Virus record (IMG/VR): IMGVR_UViG_3300034073_002842
Span: 1 to 40,299 of that record
Source of the DNA: a virus
Length of the DNA: 40,299 nucleotides
Reading direction: 5' to 3' (one strand)
Shown here: positions 1,030 through 18,119 of the stretch, piece by piece
How the letters are laid out: every line of letters begins with the position of its first letter
Numbering within the stretch: the first letter of the stretch is position 1
The notes under the pieces: model-generated
Seen by the model: only the letters and a program-made list of their open reading frames with translations
Databases searched by the model: none
What the model was told of the DNA's origin: nothing
Position numbers and translations under genes: made by a program

Positions 1030-3526
1030 CTCGCGAGGTGGTGCCCGCGCCTTTGAAGTAGATCGAGCCCGCCTTGGCCGCTCCAGGCAGTCGCGTGAGG
1101 ACGGTGGGCCAGCAATTCGACCATGGCGTGTCGGCCAGGATGCGGCCGATGGCCTCGGCGTTGTTCGAGATCAGCACCGCGTTGCCGTCGGGTCGAATGC
1201 CATGGCGGCCGAGGGTGGAATGGGCCAGATCGGCGCAGACGTGGAAGTCGTGCTCGCGATGCAGGGCGAGGTCGACGAGCTCCCCGATCGATCGGGTGAG
1301 CACCTTCTCGGCCTCGACGCGGAGCTGGTGCTGGAGGATGCGCTGGATGCAGCGCCGCTCGTCGGGGATCTCGACGGCCTGGCTGTAGGGCTCCCAGTCG
1401 TTGGATTCGATCAGCTGACGGGCCTGGTCGGCGGTGGCCGGTTCGGAGCTGTGGAGGGACCATGCGCCGGCGAGGAGGGTGCCGTACTGGTCCCCCAGAC
1501 GCTGGGAGTCGAACCGCTCGGCCGCGGCCCGGGCGAAGACGCGGATCGAGGCGCGAATGGCCGGGATGAGGGCCACGGTGCGGGCCTGGAGGCGGCGGCC
1601 GATGTCATCGGAGACGTAGCGGTCGAGATCGCGGTCGAGGGCCTCCCAGTGGGACAGGCGCTCGGCCTTGGGGATCTCGGCGGGGTTGCGGAGGGTGAGC
1701 TGCGCGAACCGGCTCTTGTCGGCGCCCTGACGCAGGGCGGTGGCGATCGACGAGAGCAGGAACATGGAGCGGATCGAGTACCGCTGCGTGTCACCTTCGG
1801 GTGAGCCCTTCAGGGTGTGGGCCCGGCTCTCGGATGATGCGACTCGAGCGAGGCCGAGGATGGCCTGCATGCGCGCCTGATCGGGCTTCTCGTTGGATTC
1901 GGCCTCGTCGAACACGACGGGAAGGGCATCGGCGCGAAGCGCCTGGCGGATGCCGGGCTCGGTGGTGTTGCCCGCGACCACCAAGGCGAGATCACCCAGG
2001 AGGGGGGTGACGTAGCGATCGAGGATCGCGGACTTCCCTGAGCCGGCGCCGGCGGTCAGCCAGGCGTGCGGCCGCCAGTCGAGGGCGCCGCAGACAGGCG
2101 CAAGGGTGACCCAGCCAGCGAGGAGCAAGCCGGATGCGGGCACCTCCCAGTGGAAGCGCTGTGCGATGAGGGCGAGGATCAAGGCCTCGTCATCGGAGAG
2201 CGGCTCAGCGCCGGTGGGGCCCTGGAGTGAGCTCAGGCGCTGGTAGAGGTAGGAGCTGCCTGCCAGGCGGTCGCAGACGGTCTGCTCGATGCCGTCGACG
2301 ATGAGGCGATCGCCGAGGTGGAGCACGGAGCGGTTGCGATCCCACCATGCGCCGCGGCCGCGGATCCGATCGGGGCAGTAGACGCCGATGCGGGCCTGCT
2401 GCTCGAAGAGATCGGATGCTGCGGCGGTCCAGTTGGGGCCGCCGCGGCCGCCTGGGTGAGCGGACTCCCAGTAGGCCAGTGGAGCGAGTGCGCAGAGGTT
2501 GGTGCCGGAATGGGAGGAGCGCGAGAGGCGCATCACCTGGCCGGTGCGGTGTGGCTGGTAGTAGTAGGCGTCGTTGTCGAAGCCGAGGCAGGTGAAGTAG
2601 GCGGAGGTGGCTCGGATCGGATCGGGCGCTGGTGCTGAAGCAGGTGCAGCAGCAGGGGTGGGCTCAGGCTCGGGCTCAGGCTCGGGCAGCTCGATGGGCT
2701 TGATGTGGTCGCGGACGTAGGCGAGGGCCTCGTCGGGAGACCATGAGGCGTCGGCGATGTCCCAACCATCCGGGAATGCCGGATCGTTGGCGATGGCCTT
2801 GAGGGTGCAGCCGAGGCCGAGGAGCTTGCGGCCGAGCTCCGCCATGGCCTGGCGGCCTGGGTCGTCGTTGTCGGGCCAGAGGGTGACGTGCCGGCCCCGA
2901 AGGGGGCTCCAGTCGGCCTTGCCGATGGCGTTGCAGCCGGACGGCCAGGTGACGACCACGACGTGATCACCCAGGAGACGCGCGGCGGCATCGGCTGCCT
3001 TCTCGCCCTCGACGATCAGCACGCGGGCATCAGGGCGGGCCTGCAGCTGCGCAAGGTTCAGCAGCGGCCGAGGTGCGGGGGGCGCCTTCCAGCGCCAGGC
3101 GTCACCATCCCACCAGAGGGGGCGGATCTTCTTGCCCGGGAACCGGCAGACCAGGAAGGTGCTCGAGTAGCGCCAGACCGATTCCGCGCCGGCGGTGGGC
3201 GGCTCGCTGGCGGGGCGCTGTGGGGTGGACGGGACGCCGAGGAAGGCCTCGATGCGCTGAGCGGCGGTCGGGAAGTCCCAGCCGGTGCGACGCATGAGCA
3301 GGTCCATGCCGGAGCCGGCCCCGCCGTGCTGATCGCGACCGCCGCAGCGGTTGCAGAACCAGGAGCCGGAGCCGTCCTGATCGTCGAAGCGGTAGCGGTC
3401 CTCTCCCCCGCAGAGGGGGCAAGGCTGATGGCGATCGGTGAGCTGCTGCTGCGTGAGGCCAGCCAGCGAGCCGAGGATGGCGGGCCAGTGGCCGGCCGCC
3501 AGGTCGGTTACACGGGTACGGCTCAT
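983..3526 (-). CDS. Bifunctional DNA primase-helicase
   Basis: This 847-residue replication protein combines primase and helicase parts. A CHC2-type zinc-binding site has Cys36, Cys39, Cys58 and Cys61 (CPLCGG and FCNRCGG). A Toprim-like domain follows, with VLIVEGEKAADA near 169-180 and LWPDNDDPGR near 216-225. An acidic-proline then alanine-proline linker (about 281-303) is encoded by short tandem repeats near 2655-2690. The C-terminal half is a P-loop ATPase with Walker A AGAGSGKS (492-499) and Walker B PVVFDEAE (536-543). I chose the ATG at 3526, which overlaps the upstream stop as ATGA, over the longer frame open to 3661. It presumably primes and unwinds phage DNA at a nearby origin, together with the helicase and nuclease upstream. 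Confidence 0.9.
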   Translation of the reverse strand: MSRTRVTDLAAGHWPAILGSLAGLTQQQLTDRHQPCPLCGGEDRYRFDDQDGSGSWFCNRCGGRDQHGGAGSGMDLLMRRTGWDFPTAAQRIEAFLGVPSTPQRPASEPPTAGAESVWRYSSTFLVCRFPGKKIRPLWWDGDAWRWKAPPAPRPLLNLAQLQARPDARVLIVEGEKAADAAARLLGDHVVVVTWPSGCNAIGKADWSPLRGRHVTLWPDNDDPGRQAMAELGRKLLGLGCTLKAIANDPAFPDGWDIADASWSPDEALAYVRDHIKPIELPEPEPEPEPTPAAAPASAPAPDPIRATSAYFTCLGFDNDAYYYQPHRTGQVMRLSRSSHSGTNLCALAPLAYWESAHPGGRGGPNWTAAASDLFEQQARIGVYCPDRIRGRGAWWDRNRSVLHLGDRLIVDGIEQTVCDRLAGSSYLYQRLSSLQGPTGAEPLSDDEALILALIAQRFHWEVPASGLLLAGWVTLAPVCGALDWRPHAWLTAGAGSGKSAILDRYVTPLLGDLALVVAGNTTEPGIRQALRADALPVVFDEAESNEKPDQARMQAILGLARVASSESRAHTLKGSPEGDTQRYSIRSMFLLSSIATALRQGADKSRFAQLTLRNPAEIPKAERLSHWEALDRDLDRYVSDDIGRRLQARTVALIPAIRASIRVFARAAAERFDSQRLGDQYGTLLAGAWSLHSSEPATADQARQLIESNDWEPYSQAVEIPDERRCIQRILQHQLRVEAEKVLTRSIGELVDLALHREHDFHVCADLAHSTLGRHGIRPDGNAVLISNNAEAIGRILADTPWSNCWPTVLTRLPGAAKAGSIYFKGAGTTSRAVRVPLDAVDRADPP

Positions 3527-11035: not shown

Positions 11036-11247
11036 GAAAGCCCCGTGAACTGGCCGCCCAGCCGTGGCGGTTCATCCCCGGTGACCTGGCCTACGTCCGC
11101 GGCTGGCGCCAGGACCTCACCGGCCAGGTGCAGATCATCGGACAGATCGCCGGCGGTGCGCTGCCGCACTACGAAGCGATCGACAACGCCGGCACGACCT
11201 GGCGCATCTCACAGCTCGAACTGTCCTCCCGCCCAATCAACCTCTGA
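11032..11247 (+). CDS. Small hypothetical protein, SH3-like
   Basis: This 71-residue protein has a beta-rich pattern: GDLAYVRGWRQ, GQVQIIGQIAGG, and TWRISQLEL at the end. The spacing recalls small SH3-like barrels found in phage accessory genes, but I cannot assign a family. It overlaps its neighbours by 4 bp and 1 bp. Confidence 0.55.
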   Translation: MRKPRELAAQPWRFIPGDLAYVRGWRQDLTGQVQIIGQIAGGALPHYEAIDNAGTTWRISQLELSSRPINL

Positions 11248-11759
11248 TGGCCATCCTCGTTGACTGGCAGATCGCCAACCGTTGCCGCAATGGTCTGGTG
11301 ACGCCGTTTGATCCTGACCTGGTGAACCCTGCGAGCCTCGATCTCCGGCTCGGTGACACCCTGCTGATAGAGAGCGTGGAGGGGCCTGAGCTGAAGGCCT
11401 ACCCACTCAGCCAGCACAGCCAGGAGGAACCGTACTGGCTCCGGCCCGGCCAGTTCGTCCTGGCGTGCACCATGGAGCAGGTGAGCCTCACGGCTGACAT
11501 CGGCGCGCAGTTCCTGCTGAAGTCCAGCCGCGCCAGGGAGGGATTGAACCACCTCATGGCCGGCTGGATCGATCCCGGCTTCCGCGGGGCCCTCACCTTG
11601 GAGCTGCACAACGTGCGCCAGCTGCAGGCGCAGGCGCTGTGGCCTGGAATGCGGATCGGCCAGCTGATCGTCCACTACCTGGCCAGCCAGCCGGGTCGCT
11701 CGTATGCCGAGACCGGCCGCTACGTGGGGGACACCACCGTGCAGGAGAGCAGGGGATGA
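11247..11759 (+). CDS. dcd: dCTP deaminase
   Basis: This 170-residue enzyme of the dCTP deaminase/dUTPase superfamily matches dCTP deaminases throughout. It has SLDLRLGDTL near 30-39, FVLACTMEQV, the active-site block KSSRAREGLN, and AGWIDPGFRGALTLELHN (whose Glu in TLEL is the catalytic acid position), then PGMRIGQLIV. Deamination of dCTP yields dUTP, feeding dTTP synthesis for phage replication. The start overlaps the preceding stop (TGATG). No dUTPase or thymidylate synthase gene is seen in the window. Confidence 0.85.
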   Translation: MAILVDWQIANRCRNGLVTPFDPDLVNPASLDLRLGDTLLIESVEGPELKAYPLSQHSQEEPYWLRPGQFVLACTMEQVSLTADIGAQFLLKSSRAREGLNHLMAGWIDPGFRGALTLELHNVRQLQAQALWPGMRIGQLIVHYLASQPGRSYAETGRYVGDTTVQESRG

Positions 11760-12004
11760 GCGACGACCTGGTGAACCACCCCAAGCACTACACGGCGGGG
11801 CGGCATGAGGCGATCGAGGTGATCGAGGATGCGGTCGCCGCGGCGCCTGATGTGGTGGCGGCCGGCTGCCACTGGCAGGCGCTGAAGTACCTGCTAAGGC
11901 TCTGGTTCAAGGGTGAACCGCTGCAGGATGCCAAGAAGGCCAGGTGGTATCTGGACCGGCTGATCAGCAGGCTCGAGGCGCCTGTCCCGTCTGCTGACGG
12001 ATGA
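11756..12004 (+). CDS. DUF3310 protein (phage nucleotide kinase-like family)
   Basis: This 82-residue protein has the DUF3310 signature: VNHPKHYTAGRHEAIEVIED at the N-terminus, then HWQALKYLLR and DAKKARWYLDRLI. Family members are widespread in phages and are often labelled nucleotide kinase-like, but no reaction has been firmly shown as far as I know. It starts in an ATGA overlap with dcd, which fits a role in nucleotide metabolism. Its last 40 bp are overlapped by the antisense NblA-like gene. Confidence 0.85.
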   Translation: MSDDLVNHPKHYTAGRHEAIEVIEDAVAAAPDVVAAGCHWQALKYLLRLWFKGEPLQDAKKARWYLDRLISRLEAPVPSADG

Positions 12005-12146
12005 GCCAGAGGTTCGCCGCCCGCTGGCTGTGCCATGCGGAGAGCAACTGCTGGCAGAGGGAGCGCAGGGCTGTGATGTCGTCCGCGGCGTCGATGGTCC
12101 TGCGCATCCGCTCAAGCTCGAACTGCTGTGCGGTGGTGAGCTCCAT
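11964..12146 (-). CDS. NblA-like small protein (phycobilisome degradation adaptor family, tentative)
   Basis: This 60-residue, two-helix protein is encoded opposite to all its neighbours. It begins MELTTAQQFELERMRR and continues with LRSLCQQLLSAWHSQRAA and LWLIRQQ. The length, the L-(T/S)-x-x-Q-x-F start and the helical register resemble NblA, the cyanobacterial adaptor that targets phycobiliproteins to the Clp protease. NblA genes are known from some freshwater cyanophages. The match is by eye and partial: the C-terminal MIRENMY-like block of NblA is not clear. A plus-strand frame at 12001-12174 also stays open, but it has shadow-like Ser/Cys/Arg composition. There is no strong ribosome site. 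Confidence 0.5.
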   Translation of the reverse strand: MELTTAQQFELERMRRTIDAADDITALRSLCQQLLSAWHSQRAANLWLIRQQTGQAPRAC

Positions 12147-12180
12147 CGGCGTGCAGCATCTGAACCAACGGTAGGACCAC

Positions 12181-12780
12181 ATGAAGAAGCCACGATGGAG
12201 TGAGGCAGAACTGACGCGGCTGGAGTTCCTGGCCGGCGAGATGCCGCTGCCCTTGCTGTGCCAGAGCTACAACACCTGGGCGCTGAAGAACGGATACCCG
12301 CAGCGGGCGAAGTTCGCGGTGCGGAACCGGCTGCAACGCGGCGGGCTTTCCACCTTCGCGGATGGTGTGTACCTGAGCCGCGACGAGGTGGCCAGGCTGA
12401 CCGGCGCGAGCAAGGTGCGGATCACGCGGATCATCCGGGACCGTGAGCCACGGCTGGCGCGGAGTGGCTACCGCACGTTCGTGCATCGCGGCGACCTGGC
12501 GGCAGCAGCACGCGAGCATCCTGAGGACTGGTACGGAGTGGGCCGTGATGGGCTGTTCCTGCTGTTCGAGGATCCGGAGCTGGCCGAGGAGGTGGCGGCG
12601 CGTGCGGTGCGGCCTCCGTGGTCTGCGGGCCGGCGTGCGGTGAGGTGCCTGATCACGGGCAGGGTGTACGGCTCGACCAGGGCGGCAGCGCAGGCAGCAA
12701 GCTGCGGTGACAGCACGGTGCGGCGGTGTGCGGAGAGCGGCCGTGCGACGAGCTGGGGTCAGCGGTGGGAATGGGCATGA
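12181..12780 (+). CDS. Multi-domain HTH DNA-binding protein (NUMOD1-like C-terminus)
   Basis: This 199-residue protein appears to have three small DNA-binding units. The first is an N-terminal SANT/Myb-like helix set (RWSEAELTRLEFLAGEMPL). The second is a central HTH (LSRDEVARLTGASKVRITRI, about 66-85) followed by a wing and RTFVHRGDLAAAAREHPEDW. The third is a C-terminal NUMOD1-like repeat (VRCLITGRVYGSTRAAAQAA, then STVRRCAESGRATSWGQRW). NUMOD1 domains occur in homing endonucleases, but no nuclease motif is seen here, so it is more likely a regulator or decoy. AGGA precedes the ATG. It ends in an ATGA overlap. Confidence 0.7.
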   Translation: MKKPRWSEAELTRLEFLAGEMPLPLLCQSYNTWALKNGYPQRAKFAVRNRLQRGGLSTFADGVYLSRDEVARLTGASKVRITRIIRDREPRLARSGYRTFVHRGDLAAAAREHPEDWYGVGRDGLFLLFEDPELAEEVAARAVRPPWSAGRRAVRCLITGRVYGSTRAAAQAASCGDSTVRRCAESGRATSWGQRWEWA

Positions 12781-13082
12781 AGGATTGTTACAGCCTCTGG
12801 TGTGAGGTGGGCGGCCGGCTGCATGATGTGTGCATCGGGGCGCCGCCCCGGTTCAACTTCGACCGGCCTCGCAGCCGGCCCCTGGAAATGGACATCAAAG
12901 CAACCGGCAACGGATTCAGCAGCACTGAAGTGCAGTTCACTGCAGTCAGTGAGGCCGGCAAAGCTGCGATGGCCAAGGTCGGGGGCTTTGCCTGCATCGG
13001 AATGAGCATCCGCAAGAGCCATGTCGGCCAGATGCTCGACGTGCTTTCGGATCAGGGCGTCAGCATTGAATGGGTCGCCTGA
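12777..13082 (+). CDS. Small hypothetical protein
   Basis: This 101-residue protein of unknown function has SSTEVQFTAVSEAGKAAM and FACIGMSIRKSHVGQML in its C-terminal half. The start at 12777 overlaps the upstream stop (ATGA). However, promoter-like copy B lies at 12783-12827, inside this frame, so an internal ATG at 12889 (MDIKATGNG) giving 64 residues is a real alternative. The N-terminal 37 residues are less protein-like (Cys/Arg/Pro rich), which favours the shorter form. Confidence 0.6.
   Translation: MKDCYSLWCEVGGRLHDVCIGAPPRFNFDRPRSRPLEMDIKATGNGFSSTEVQFTAVSEAGKAAMAKVGGFACIGMSIRKSHVGQMLDVLSDQGVSIEWVA
12783..12827 (+). promoter_or_regulatory. Promoter-like element copy B (GATTGTTAC ... 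CATGAT)
   Basis: GATTGTTAC (12783-12791) is followed 39 nt later by CATGAT (12822-12827). Shortly after comes TGCATCGGGG, which also follows copy C at 16376. It would drive the downstream gene from 12889. Confidence 0.45.
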
Positions 13083-13136
13083 CCCACCACGGCCCGCCGG
13101 GGCCTACCCGGCAACCACTTCACCCCGTAGTGAGCC

Positions 13137-14648: not shown

Positions 14649-15139
14649 GCGACCGACTGCGCGAGCTGTTCGATCAGCACGCCGACGATAAAACTTATGG
14701 ATACGGCACAGAGTTGTGCATGACCCGGGAAGCGTTCGAGGCTGCCGCCCGCGCCCTGCTGGCCGAGGCCCAGCCCGTAAGCACGCCCGAGCGAATCGCA
14801 TCCATCGCAGCTCAGGCGCTGGAATGCGCCCTTGCGTGGGAACCGGACGCCAGGTTGATAGGCAACGTTCGCGCTGAGGATATTGCCGACCTGTGCAGCG
14901 CCGTCATCGCCGGCTTACGCCCTGCGCCGGAGCCGGTCAGCGTGGCCGAGCGGCTGCCCACGGCGCAGGATTGCACCAAGGAAGGTGAGGTCTGGGTTGC
15001 AGTGCCCGGATTCAGCGGCTATGGCTGGGATCCTCACAGATACGTTCTGCGTCCATTGTCCGATTGGGACATGAATCGGCGTAGTCGCTGGCTGCCCCAC
15101 TGGGCGCTGCCGGTGCCGCAGGAGCAGGCCGATGGCTGA
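14645..15139 (+). CDS. DUF551-like hypothetical protein
   Basis: This 164-residue protein has an N-terminal helical part (FEAAARALLAEAQPV), as seen in many composite phage early proteins. Its C-terminal block resembles DUF551: SVAERLPTAQDCTKEGEVW, then RSRWLPHWALPVP. In DUF551 the W-x-P-x-x-W-x-P-L-P-like ending is typical. No function is known. It overlaps the next start by 8 bp. Confidence 0.65.
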   Translation: MSDRLRELFDQHADDKTYGYGTELCMTREAFEAAARALLAEAQPVSTPERIASIAAQALECALAWEPDARLIGNVRAEDIADLCSAVIAGLRPAPEPVSVAERLPTAQDCTKEGEVWVAVPGFSGYGWDPHRYVLRPLSDWDMNRRSRWLPHWALPVPQEQADG

Positions 15140-15311
15140 CCCCACGCACCCCGCCCAGCTGGCCGCCGACATCCGCACGGCAGTGGACTCCACCTGGATC
15201 CATCAGCCCGTGGTCGCCGCCCTGCTGGAGCTGGCCTCGATCATGGAGCGCCAGCGCATCATCTCCGCTGACGTGCGGGCCATCGCTAACGAACTGAGCC
15301 GCTATCCATGA
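15132..15311 (+). CDS. Small hypothetical protein
   Basis: This 59-residue, mostly helical protein (MADPTHPAQLAADIRTAV...) starts in the sequence CAGGCCGATGGCTGACC. The same junction recurs at the 15916 start, so the two gene starts may share a duplicated boundary. It ends in an ATGA overlap. Confidence 0.55.
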   Translation: MADPTHPAQLAADIRTAVDSTWIHQPVVAALLELASIMERQRIISADVRAIANELSRYP

Positions 15312-16162: not shown

Positions 16163-16195
16163 AGCCCCGTAAGCCATTGGCCTGCGGGGCTTTTT
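16163..16195 (+). terminator. Rho-independent terminator of the early operon
   Basis: AAGCCCCG and CGGGGCTT flank a loop, with further pairing between GGCC bases inside. The hairpin is followed by TTTTT (16191-16195) and lies 60 bp after the last early gene. It is the natural end point of rightward transcription before attP. Confidence 0.8.
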
Positions 16196-16201
16196 CTTGG
16201 A

Positions 16202-16276
16202 TGCGGGGGCAGGATTTGAACCTGCGACCTTCAGGTTATGAGCATGACGCTCCGGGCTACCGTGGGATCCCGCCGC
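16202..16276 (-). tRNA. tRNA-Met(CAT)-like sequence, probably the attP core rather than a working tRNA
   Basis: On the minus strand the 3' part reads as a good tRNA. The anticodon loop CTCATAA contains the anticodon CAT. The T arm is GCAGG-TTCAAAT-CCTGC, followed by CCCCGCA as the acceptor 3' strand. The 5' half folds poorly: the acceptor and anticodon stems each have a mismatch, position 8 is not U and the D stem is weak. This is expected if the phage carries only the 3' identity block that restores a host tRNA-Met gene on integration. A tRNA finder may report it with a low score. Confidence 0.5.
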
Positions 16277-16462: not shown

Positions 16463-16999
16463 ATGACCATCCCCTCCGGTTATCCCACACCAGCACAGAT
16501 CGAAGCGCTCACAGCCAGCTTCCTGCGGATTGGCCGCGCTGCTCATGAGGTAGCAGACAGCATTGTCGATGCCTTCGCTGCCGCTGCCCGCCAGCTGGAG
16601 TGGAAGCGCGCCGAGGCCCGTCGCGAGGCGCAGTGGCACCGCCAGCAGGAGAAGAACATCCTTCGCCAGCAGCTCGATCGCGACACCACCTACTTCGGCC
16701 GCAAGCGCCGCGCGCGCCGTGCCAGGGGGCGGCGGATCGATGGCAGGTGGAACCCTCCCTACTTCGGCGGCCGAATCTGGCTGGCCAGCGCAAGGTCGAG
16801 CTTCAGAAGCCATCCCCTGCCGAAGGTGATGATGCTCGACGAGGTCGACAGCTTCCCGACTGGAGATTTGACGGTCGAGCGGTGGGCCGGTGCTCAACGC
16901 CTTATGCGGTCCCATTGCGCAGATGCAGATCGCTTCCTGGATCCGTCGCTGGGCCAGCCGTGGGAGGGCACCGATGAAGCTGACCAAGACCGCCGTTGA
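16463..16999 (+). CDS. Basic coiled-coil protein between attP and integrase
   Basis: This 178-residue protein of unknown family has an Arg/Gln-rich helical centre (EWKRAEARREAQWHRQQEKN) and then a strongly basic patch (GRKRRARRARGRR). The C-terminal part is less ordered. I chose the ATG at 16463 because the longer frame from 16391 would cover promoter-like copy C. The gene overlaps the integrase by 26 bp. Its position between attP and the integrase, and its basic character, make it a candidate directionality factor or DNA-bending partner, but no HTH is visible. Confidence 0.65.
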   Translation: MTIPSGYPTPAQIEALTASFLRIGRAAHEVADSIVDAFAAAARQLEWKRAEARREAQWHRQQEKNILRQQLDRDTTYFGRKRRARRARGRRIDGRWNPPYFGGRIWLASARSSFRSHPLPKVMMLDEVDSFPTGDLTVERWAGAQRLMRSHCADADRFLDPSLGQPWEGTDEADQDRR

Positions 17000-18119
17000 T
17001 CGCGCCATCCCCCGCCTCCGCCGGTACCGCCTCAACGACTCCCTAGTGCCCGGCCTCTGCCTGCTGGTGCTCCCCTCGGGCCAGCGCACCTACTACCTGC
17101 GCCACCGCGTCGACGGGGCGCAGCGCGAGCTGAAGCTGGGCACACCGGCGGAGCTCTCCCCCGACCAGGCGCGCGAGCTGGCCCGTGCCGCCCTCGCGCG
17201 CGTGCGCGCCGGAGGTGATCCGGCGGCGGAGCGCCGGGCCGCCAGGGAGGTCCCGACGATCGAGGCCCTCGCCGCCCGCCACCTGCAGGCCCACGCCAGC
17301 CGGAAGCGGAGCGGCCGGAACGACGAGATCCTCTGGCGGCGGCATCTGCTGCCGGCCTTCGCGCGCGTGCGCGTGGGCGCCCTCACCCGCGAGCAGGTGC
17401 GCGAGTGGCATGCCTGCCATCCACAGCCGGCGACCGCCAACCGGGCCCTGGAGGTGCTTGGGGTGGCGATGGGGCTGGCTGAGGAGTGGGGCTGGCGGCC
17501 GGCGGGCAGCAACCCGGCCCGGGGGGTGAAGGCGCACCCGGAGCGGCAGCGGCGGCGGTACGCCAGCCCGGACGAGCTGGCCCGGCTGCGTGCTGCGATG
17601 CAGCGATGGGAGGCGGCGGGCCCGCTGGCGATCCGCTGGCGGTTCGTCCAGCTGGTGCGCCTGCTGCTGCTCACCGGTGCCCGGCTGCGCGAGGTGATGA
17701 ACGCCCAGTGGTCGGAGATCGACTGGAACCGAGGCGTGCTGCGGGTGCCAGCCGAGCGCGGCAAGACCGGGGCCAGCGAGGTGCGGCTGAGCGATCGGGC
17801 GGTGGCGGTGCTGCGTGGCATGGAGGCCGCGGCCGGCGGCAGCCGGTGGGTGGTGCCGGGCGAGACGGGCGACCGCCCGCTGGTGGGCTACCGGCGGATG
17901 TGGCTGGCGCTCCTCGAGGAGGCGGGGGTGGCTGACCTGCGGGTGCACGACCTGCGGCACACGTTCGCGTCCTACAGCCTGAGCGGCGGCCAGACGCTGG
18001 GCACGGTCGGGCAGCTGCTGGGGCACCGGAGCACGCAGACCACCAGCCGGTATGCCCACCTGGTGGATGACGCGGCGCGGGCGGCGGTGGAGCGGGTGAG
18101 CGACGACCTGGGGGTGTGA
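16974..18119 (+). CDS. int: Tyrosine recombinase integrase
   Basis: This 381-residue site-specific integrase has an N-terminal arm-binding segment of the DUF4102 type (YYLRHRVDGAQRELKLG, LSPDQARELA), then a core-binding SAM-like domain (about 95-180). The C-terminal catalytic domain has Arg237 (LTGARLRE), Lys264 (GKTG), His325 and Arg328 (HDLRHTF), His351 (LLGHRST) and the nucleophile Tyr360 (SRYAH). All catalytic residues are present. GGGAGG lies just before the chosen ATG, while the frame is open further upstream. It would recombine the adjacent attP with a host tRNA-Met gene, making the phage temperate. Confidence 0.95.
   Translation: MKLTKTAVDRAIPRLRRYRLNDSLVPGLCLLVLPSGQRTYYLRHRVDGAQRELKLGTPAELSPDQARELARAALARVRAGGDPAAERRAAREVPTIEALAARHLQAHASRKRSGRNDEILWRRHLLPAFARVRVGALTREQVREWHACHPQPATANRALEVLGVAMGLAEEWGWRPAGSNPARGVKAHPERQRRRYASPDELARLRAAMQRWEAAGPLAIRWRFVQLVRLLLLTGARLREVMNAQWSEIDWNRGVLRVPAERGKTGASEVRLSDRAVAVLRGMEAAAGGSRWVVPGETGDRPLVGYRRMWLALLEEAGVADLRVHDLRHTFASYSLSGGQTLGTVGQLLGHRSTQTTSRYAHLVDDAARAAVERVSDDLGV

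Follow-up and report, generated by a model that had tools for sequence, protein, structure and literature searches.

NblA is the small protein by which cyanobacteria get their light-harvesting antennae degraded, and in Anabaena NblA the residues Leu51 and Lys53 matter for phycobilisome binding. Phage-borne nblA is already known from two settings, namely the Microcystis phages Ma-LMM01 and MaMV-DC, where it is thought to aid infection, and marine cyanophages, including the T4-like phages S-TIM5 and S-SCSM1, whose genes have been reported as nblA (PMC9602691, after Nadel et al. 2019). With respect to picocyanobacteria, Synechococcus CS-601 has been described as lacking nblA (PMC6337551) and WH8102 as having a divergent nblA gene (PMC7439483).

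The locus described here lies in an IMG/VR virus record that is linear, 40,299 bp long, and of 67.8% GC, analyzed over its whole length and hereafter called the window. In this case a temperate-type phage with a contractile tail carries a member of a divergent NblA-like family, which recurs in several other phages, antisense and confined to a single slot among the tail genes. The findings in hosts may be the more important ones, the family having been found in most of the sampled Cyanobiaceae genomes, in up to seven copies, several of them with NtcA-type motifs.

The antisense gene and its phage

The features needed for the argument are as follows (window coordinates).
11247–11759, plus strand: dCTP deaminase gene, part of the early block
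11756–12004, plus strand: nucleotide-kinase-like gene, flanking the insert on the left and overlapping the NblA-like gene 3′ end to 3′ end
11964–12146, minus strand: NblA-like gene, 60 residues; predicted helices at residues 5–20 and 24–53
11978–12181, no strand assigned: insert, almost wholly the NblA-like gene; absent in three sister phages (L138, L139, and L140)
12181–12780, plus strand: gene of unknown function, flanking the insert on the right; a 96%-identical counterpart occurs in L138, a phage with no NblA-like gene
16890–18119, plus strand: integrase gene; an 81%-identical fragment occurs in a Cyanobiaceae genome
27166–28584, minus strand: contractile tail sheath gene, which marks the phage type

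A codon-usage-based caller placed every gene that it called between 5758 and 19236 on the plus strand, in keeping with an earlier note on this DNA that had described the small gene as the sole minus-strand gene of a plus-strand block. The block contains exonuclease, RecT, dCTP deaminase, nucleotide-kinase-like, and integrase genes; three longer minus-strand ORFs inside it gave no meaningful PHROG match. From ~19.3 kb onward the genes are on the minus strand, the tail sheath gene among them. Because integrase and tail sheath genes are present, the phage is taken to be contractile-tailed and probably temperate, as the note had proposed, with the small gene antisense within its early block. The contrast that had been drawn with lytic nblA-carrying cyanophages is softer than claimed, because Ma-LMM01 also carries lysogeny-type genes (PMC5584929).

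The 60-residue ORF (11964–12146, minus strand) reads MELTTAQQFELERMRRTIDAADDITALRSLCQQLLSAWHSQRAANLWLIRQQTGQAPRAC, with position, length, and motifs as first described, and is a real, conserved gene, not a chance frame. Scans retrieved homologues 39–67% identical to it in 21 other viral contigs and 8 genome contigs, the latter all cyanobacterial ("Cyanobacteria" bins included) and mostly labeled Cyanobium/Synechococcaceae. The dN/dS ratios—0.15–0.28 between the window gene and its relatives, and about 0–0.29 within closer pairs—indicate that the family is under purifying selection. The competing plus-strand frame at 12001–12174, conservation of which had been named as an observation that would count against the NblA reading, was ruled out: it gave no match in a PHROG search, and the antisense frames are interrupted by stops in several homologues.

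In the three sister phages, the kinase gene runs directly into the counterpart of the gene at 12181. Relative to them, the window has 204 bp extra (11978–12181), nearly all of which is the NblA-like gene, that is, a single-gene antisense insertion of the kind seen in phage morons, where one opposite-strand gene stands between genes that adjoin in sister phages. Separately, three pieces of 40–50 bp (13076–13118, 14918–14964, and 15088–15140), 89–100% identical in the sister phages, were observed to be reordered there, and lie among less conserved genes.

Antisense carriage as a single gene recurs, since the family gene occupies one shared slot, again antisense, in the minus-strand tail operons of at least eight other phage contigs (L002, L005, L006, L008, L011, L012, L015, and L018), and since L153 and L174, phages with a related sheath, carry divergent relatives. 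In the tail slot, the gene has on one side a gene of ~144 aa, itself adjacent to a very long gene of the tape-measure kind, and on the other side, in most of these phages, a ~282-aa tail-protein-like gene, the functions of these neighbors being judged from size and gene order. Of the 22 virus records searched, three contain a tyrosine integrase, and by their sheaths these three are all related to the window phage; no such integrase was found in the tail-slot phages, a negative result limited by fragmentary records. A tree of 46 short proteins was too weakly resolved to count the phage acquisitions.

Relation to NblA

The Pfam NblA model (PF04485), with a curated cut-off of 25 bits, finds nothing in the window, so that the window protein is no NblA member by that cut-off; host members of the family reach up to about 23 bits. 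Furthermore, sequence searches of Pfam, NCBIfam, and the PDB returned no usable family name. A relation was found by the profile comparison that the earlier note had proposed. With hhalign, a widened family profile was aligned in full-length register with a profile of 56 diverse NblA sequences, giving P values of 4.6e-6 to 8.9e-6 (each for a single comparison), probabilities of 83–87%, and scores of 28.8–30.0, far above the 8.5 of a reversed profile and the maximum of 18.7 among 500 column-shuffled profiles, with the confident part being mainly helix 1. Narrow family profiles reached probabilities of 16–20%, and the 83–87% was obtained with paralogues added.

Host genomes point the same way. 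The Pfam NblA model exceeds its cut-off in only 1 of 201 Cyanobiaceae genomes, and 30 of the 70 listed, mostly sub-threshold matches in these genomes are genes of the NblA-like family (0.005 expected); matches coincided with the family likewise in 4 of 8 genomes. In addition, bridging host paralogues in L256–258 (TSLSLESNFELERIKRSIDAMDDLELLKHLAKQ) are matched by both the family and the NblA profiles. Thus, remote homology of the family to NblA, as a divergent subfamily, appears highly probable from profile evidence, and the resemblance claimed in the earlier note stands as distant kinship, not as a Pfam-level match.

NblA (PF04485; PDB 1ojh, 2q8v, 2qdo, and 3cs5) and the window protein are alike in length (about 60 residues), in a predicted short helix followed by a long one, and in an N-terminal L-[ST]-x-x-Q-x-F signature, whereas helix 2 has diverged (AW....W.MRQ in the family versus LY.QM.....LLKH in NblA). 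The near-invariant Arg50 of the family aligns with Lys53 of Anabaena NblA, a correspondence that offers a lead for phycobilisome binding. For the window protein, AlphaFold2 predicted a two-helix hairpin (helices at residues 5–20 and 24–53; mean pLDDT 82.8), agreeing with the two-helix protein first supposed, and this model fits the helix-loop-helix published for NblA (PMC7966870). A Foldseek search of the PDB was uninformative and did not pick NblA; among viral models, Foldseek matched C7F495 (75 aa; E 0.009, probability 1.00) and a single protein of an uncultured phage (E 8e-4).

Among phage proteins, the sole PHROG match of the window protein is a weak one (E 0.06) to phrog_27081, which is matched by an S-TIM5 protein at 4.6e-32 and an S-SCSM1 protein at 4.1e-25. 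The family profile finds S-SCSM1 ORF237 (E 2e-11, 38 bits) and the S-TIM5 gene (E 3e-12, 42.7 bits; the nblA-like gene of this phage being chosen here by that profile), which places these genes in the same family by profile. The window protein shares 27% identity with the S-SCSM1 protein and resembles Cyanobium chromosomal copies more closely; unlike the two marine T4-like phages, its carrier is a temperate-type phage, probably of freshwater picocyanobacteria. The nblA genes of Ma-LMM01 and MaMV-DC match canonical NblA (about 40% identity), but the window gene does not.

The family in picocyanobacteria and the phage host

Following the suggestion that cyanobacterial genomes be searched for homologues, a profile of 16 members found the family in 142 of the 201 sampled Cyanobiaceae genomes, with up to 7 copies in one genome. 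The main chromosomal copy lies between genes for an ABC-F-type ATPase and a Deg/HtrA-type protease (neighbors identified by eye). Some paralogues occur near a urea/branched-chain-type ABC transporter set (L097, 3664–3846), near a pst-like set (L115, 3420–3647; a motif-based name, Pfam showing only general transporter domains), near ZnuA-type metal uptake genes (L104 and L105), and next to a gene resembling ribonucleotide reductase; possibly, each host paralogue serves one nutrient stress.

At 76–92 nt upstream of the core start, perfect NtcA boxes (GTAN8TAC) precede family genes belonging to four host paralogue groups (L078, L099, L102, L103, L104, L108, L111, and L116). Within 105 distinct upstream regions of 300 nt each, 17 perfect boxes were found, 14 of them in this band, compared with 2 of 236 control ORFs; overall, one box occurs per 16 kb. 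Since the 14 sites include those of close relatives, it is the four groups that count as independent evidence. In many further main copies, a box with one mismatch occupies the same place, with TAGCNT following about 21 nt on. The motifs and the transporter neighbors together fit nutrient-stress control of the host copies, and the host family looks to be switched on by nitrogen starvation.

Unlike NblA, the family also extends to Prochlorococcus-like genomes (L235–L255; 1.3–1.9 Mb, GC 0.36–0.46), each with one divergent member; Prochlorococcus is said to lack both nblA and phycobilisomes. In L238, L241, and L245, the family domain is part of a fusion protein whose C-terminal portion is another domain with the ending ...FSSYDEAHTVLERYYADLS..EDEREYYDIVE. 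Another kind of NblA-like protein is encoded at 3092–3388 (minus strand) of L259, a phage-like contig in a Cyanobiaceae genome; it matches the NblA profile at E 1.4e-7 and gives no match to the family of the window gene.

A picocyanobacterial host, probably a freshwater one, is quite likely for the phage, because the genome scans that were run detected the family in no organisms other than cyanobacteria, and because a Cyanobiaceae genome contig has regions resembling the window. On that contig, integrase and endolysin regions are about 80% identical to the window (81% for the integrase fragment), with the caveat that genome bins can be contaminated. The earlier note had expected the gene to identify a phycobilisome-containing cyanobacterium: family distribution and the integrase fragment support the picocyanobacterium, but the gene alone is no proof of phycobilisomes, because Prochlorococcus-like genomes carry a divergent member. 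Host assignment from the tail genes failed, as the sheath is closest, among annotated records, to those of Pseudomonas, Enterobacter, and Xanthomonas phages, and no homologue was found in 300 Cyanobiaceae genomes. A degenerate tRNA-Met-like stretch not far from the integrase gene (16186–16258, minus strand; not called by ARAGORN) was considered as an attP or host marker and dropped. It is closer to alphaproteobacterial tRNA-Met than to Cyanobiaceae sequences, which, like the sheath resemblance, is a caveat to the host assignment.

Proposed role and alternatives

Most likely, the window gene came from a host, encodes a Clp adaptor of the NblA type, and is carried by the phage as a moron, as judged from sequence relationships. 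The family would be native to picocyanobacteria (Cyanobium/Synechococcus), and a temperate contractile-tailed phage would have acquired one member as a single-gene antisense insertion. Its product would pair up like NblA and tether phycobilisome proteins to the ClpC chaperone, leading to degradation of the antenna, which could free amino acids or lower light input, either during infection or in the lysogen. Within this scheme, Clp-adaptor-type action is fairly probable, and the phycobilisome is slightly favored as the target; the explanation as a whole, from divergent picocyanobacterial family member to antenna degradation, is modestly favored. We infer phycobilisome degradation by the window protein, and the earlier interpretation seems largely right but overstated.

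Alternatively, the protein may be a member of the NblA superfamily that acts elsewhere, either delivering some other substrate to Clp or serving as a small regulator of nutrient stress, and that phages recruited for a purpose other than degrading the antenna. The divergent members in Prochlorococcus-like genomes, which argue against a purely phycobilisome role, would suit this explanation, as would the presence in one genome of as many as 7 paralogues, some of which neighbor transporter genes of urea, phosphate, or metal type or the ribonucleotide-reductase-like gene and not phycobilisome genes. However, the NblA-type signature and the NtcA-type motifs fit the known role of nblA, and related cyanophage genes have been published as nblA (PMC9602691), and another target is the less probable explanation.

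It is very improbable that the family has no kinship with NblA and that the helix 1 likeness (LTxxQQFELE) arose by convergence in a short helical hairpin: the missing Pfam match of the window protein, the low probabilities from narrow profiles, and the generic two-helix fold speak for convergence, but the broader profiles score far above shuffled controls, Pfam NblA matches concentrate on this family beyond expectation, and bridging paralogues exist. Least probable of all is that the gene was inserted recently as a passenger and does nothing for the phage, which would agree with the absence of the gene from the three compared sister phages, the lack of a promoter or terminator consensus, and the tail-to-tail overlap with the kinase gene, but not with an intact frame, dN/dS of 0.15–0.28 against relatives, or retention of the same family antisense in many other phages.

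On the preferred reading, namely an NblA-type adaptor carried as a moron, a broader picture can be put forward tentatively: picocyanobacteria may possess multi-copy NblA-type adaptors wired to nutrient regulons (NtcA for nitrogen, and possibly others for phosphate and metals), and unrelated phages may repeatedly capture a family member in the form of an antisense cassette, with which they would dismantle the antenna during infection or lysogeny. If true, this would contrast with the descriptions of picocyanobacteria as having no nblA or one divergent copy. The breadth of the host family makes it directly testable how picocyanobacteria, which are abundant, lose their phycobilisomes when starved and whether phages take advantage of this.

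As for control of the phage copies, the promoter and terminator that phage morons have of their own were sought for the window gene with negative outcome: 11700–12700 showed no sigma-70-type promoter or terminator consensus, in a scan that cyanobacterial promoters may not fit, and no NtcA box was found upstream of the window copy. The assertion that the gene has its own control thus found no backing in these searches, although its position on the opposite strand makes it plausible. Upstream of other phage NblA-like genes, at a distance of ~45 nt, lies a palindrome absent from the window, TTTCCGGGAAA or TTTCCGGAAA (L006 2345, L007 61, L008 5953, L013 5956, L014 1011, and L016 3802), which is possibly an operator.
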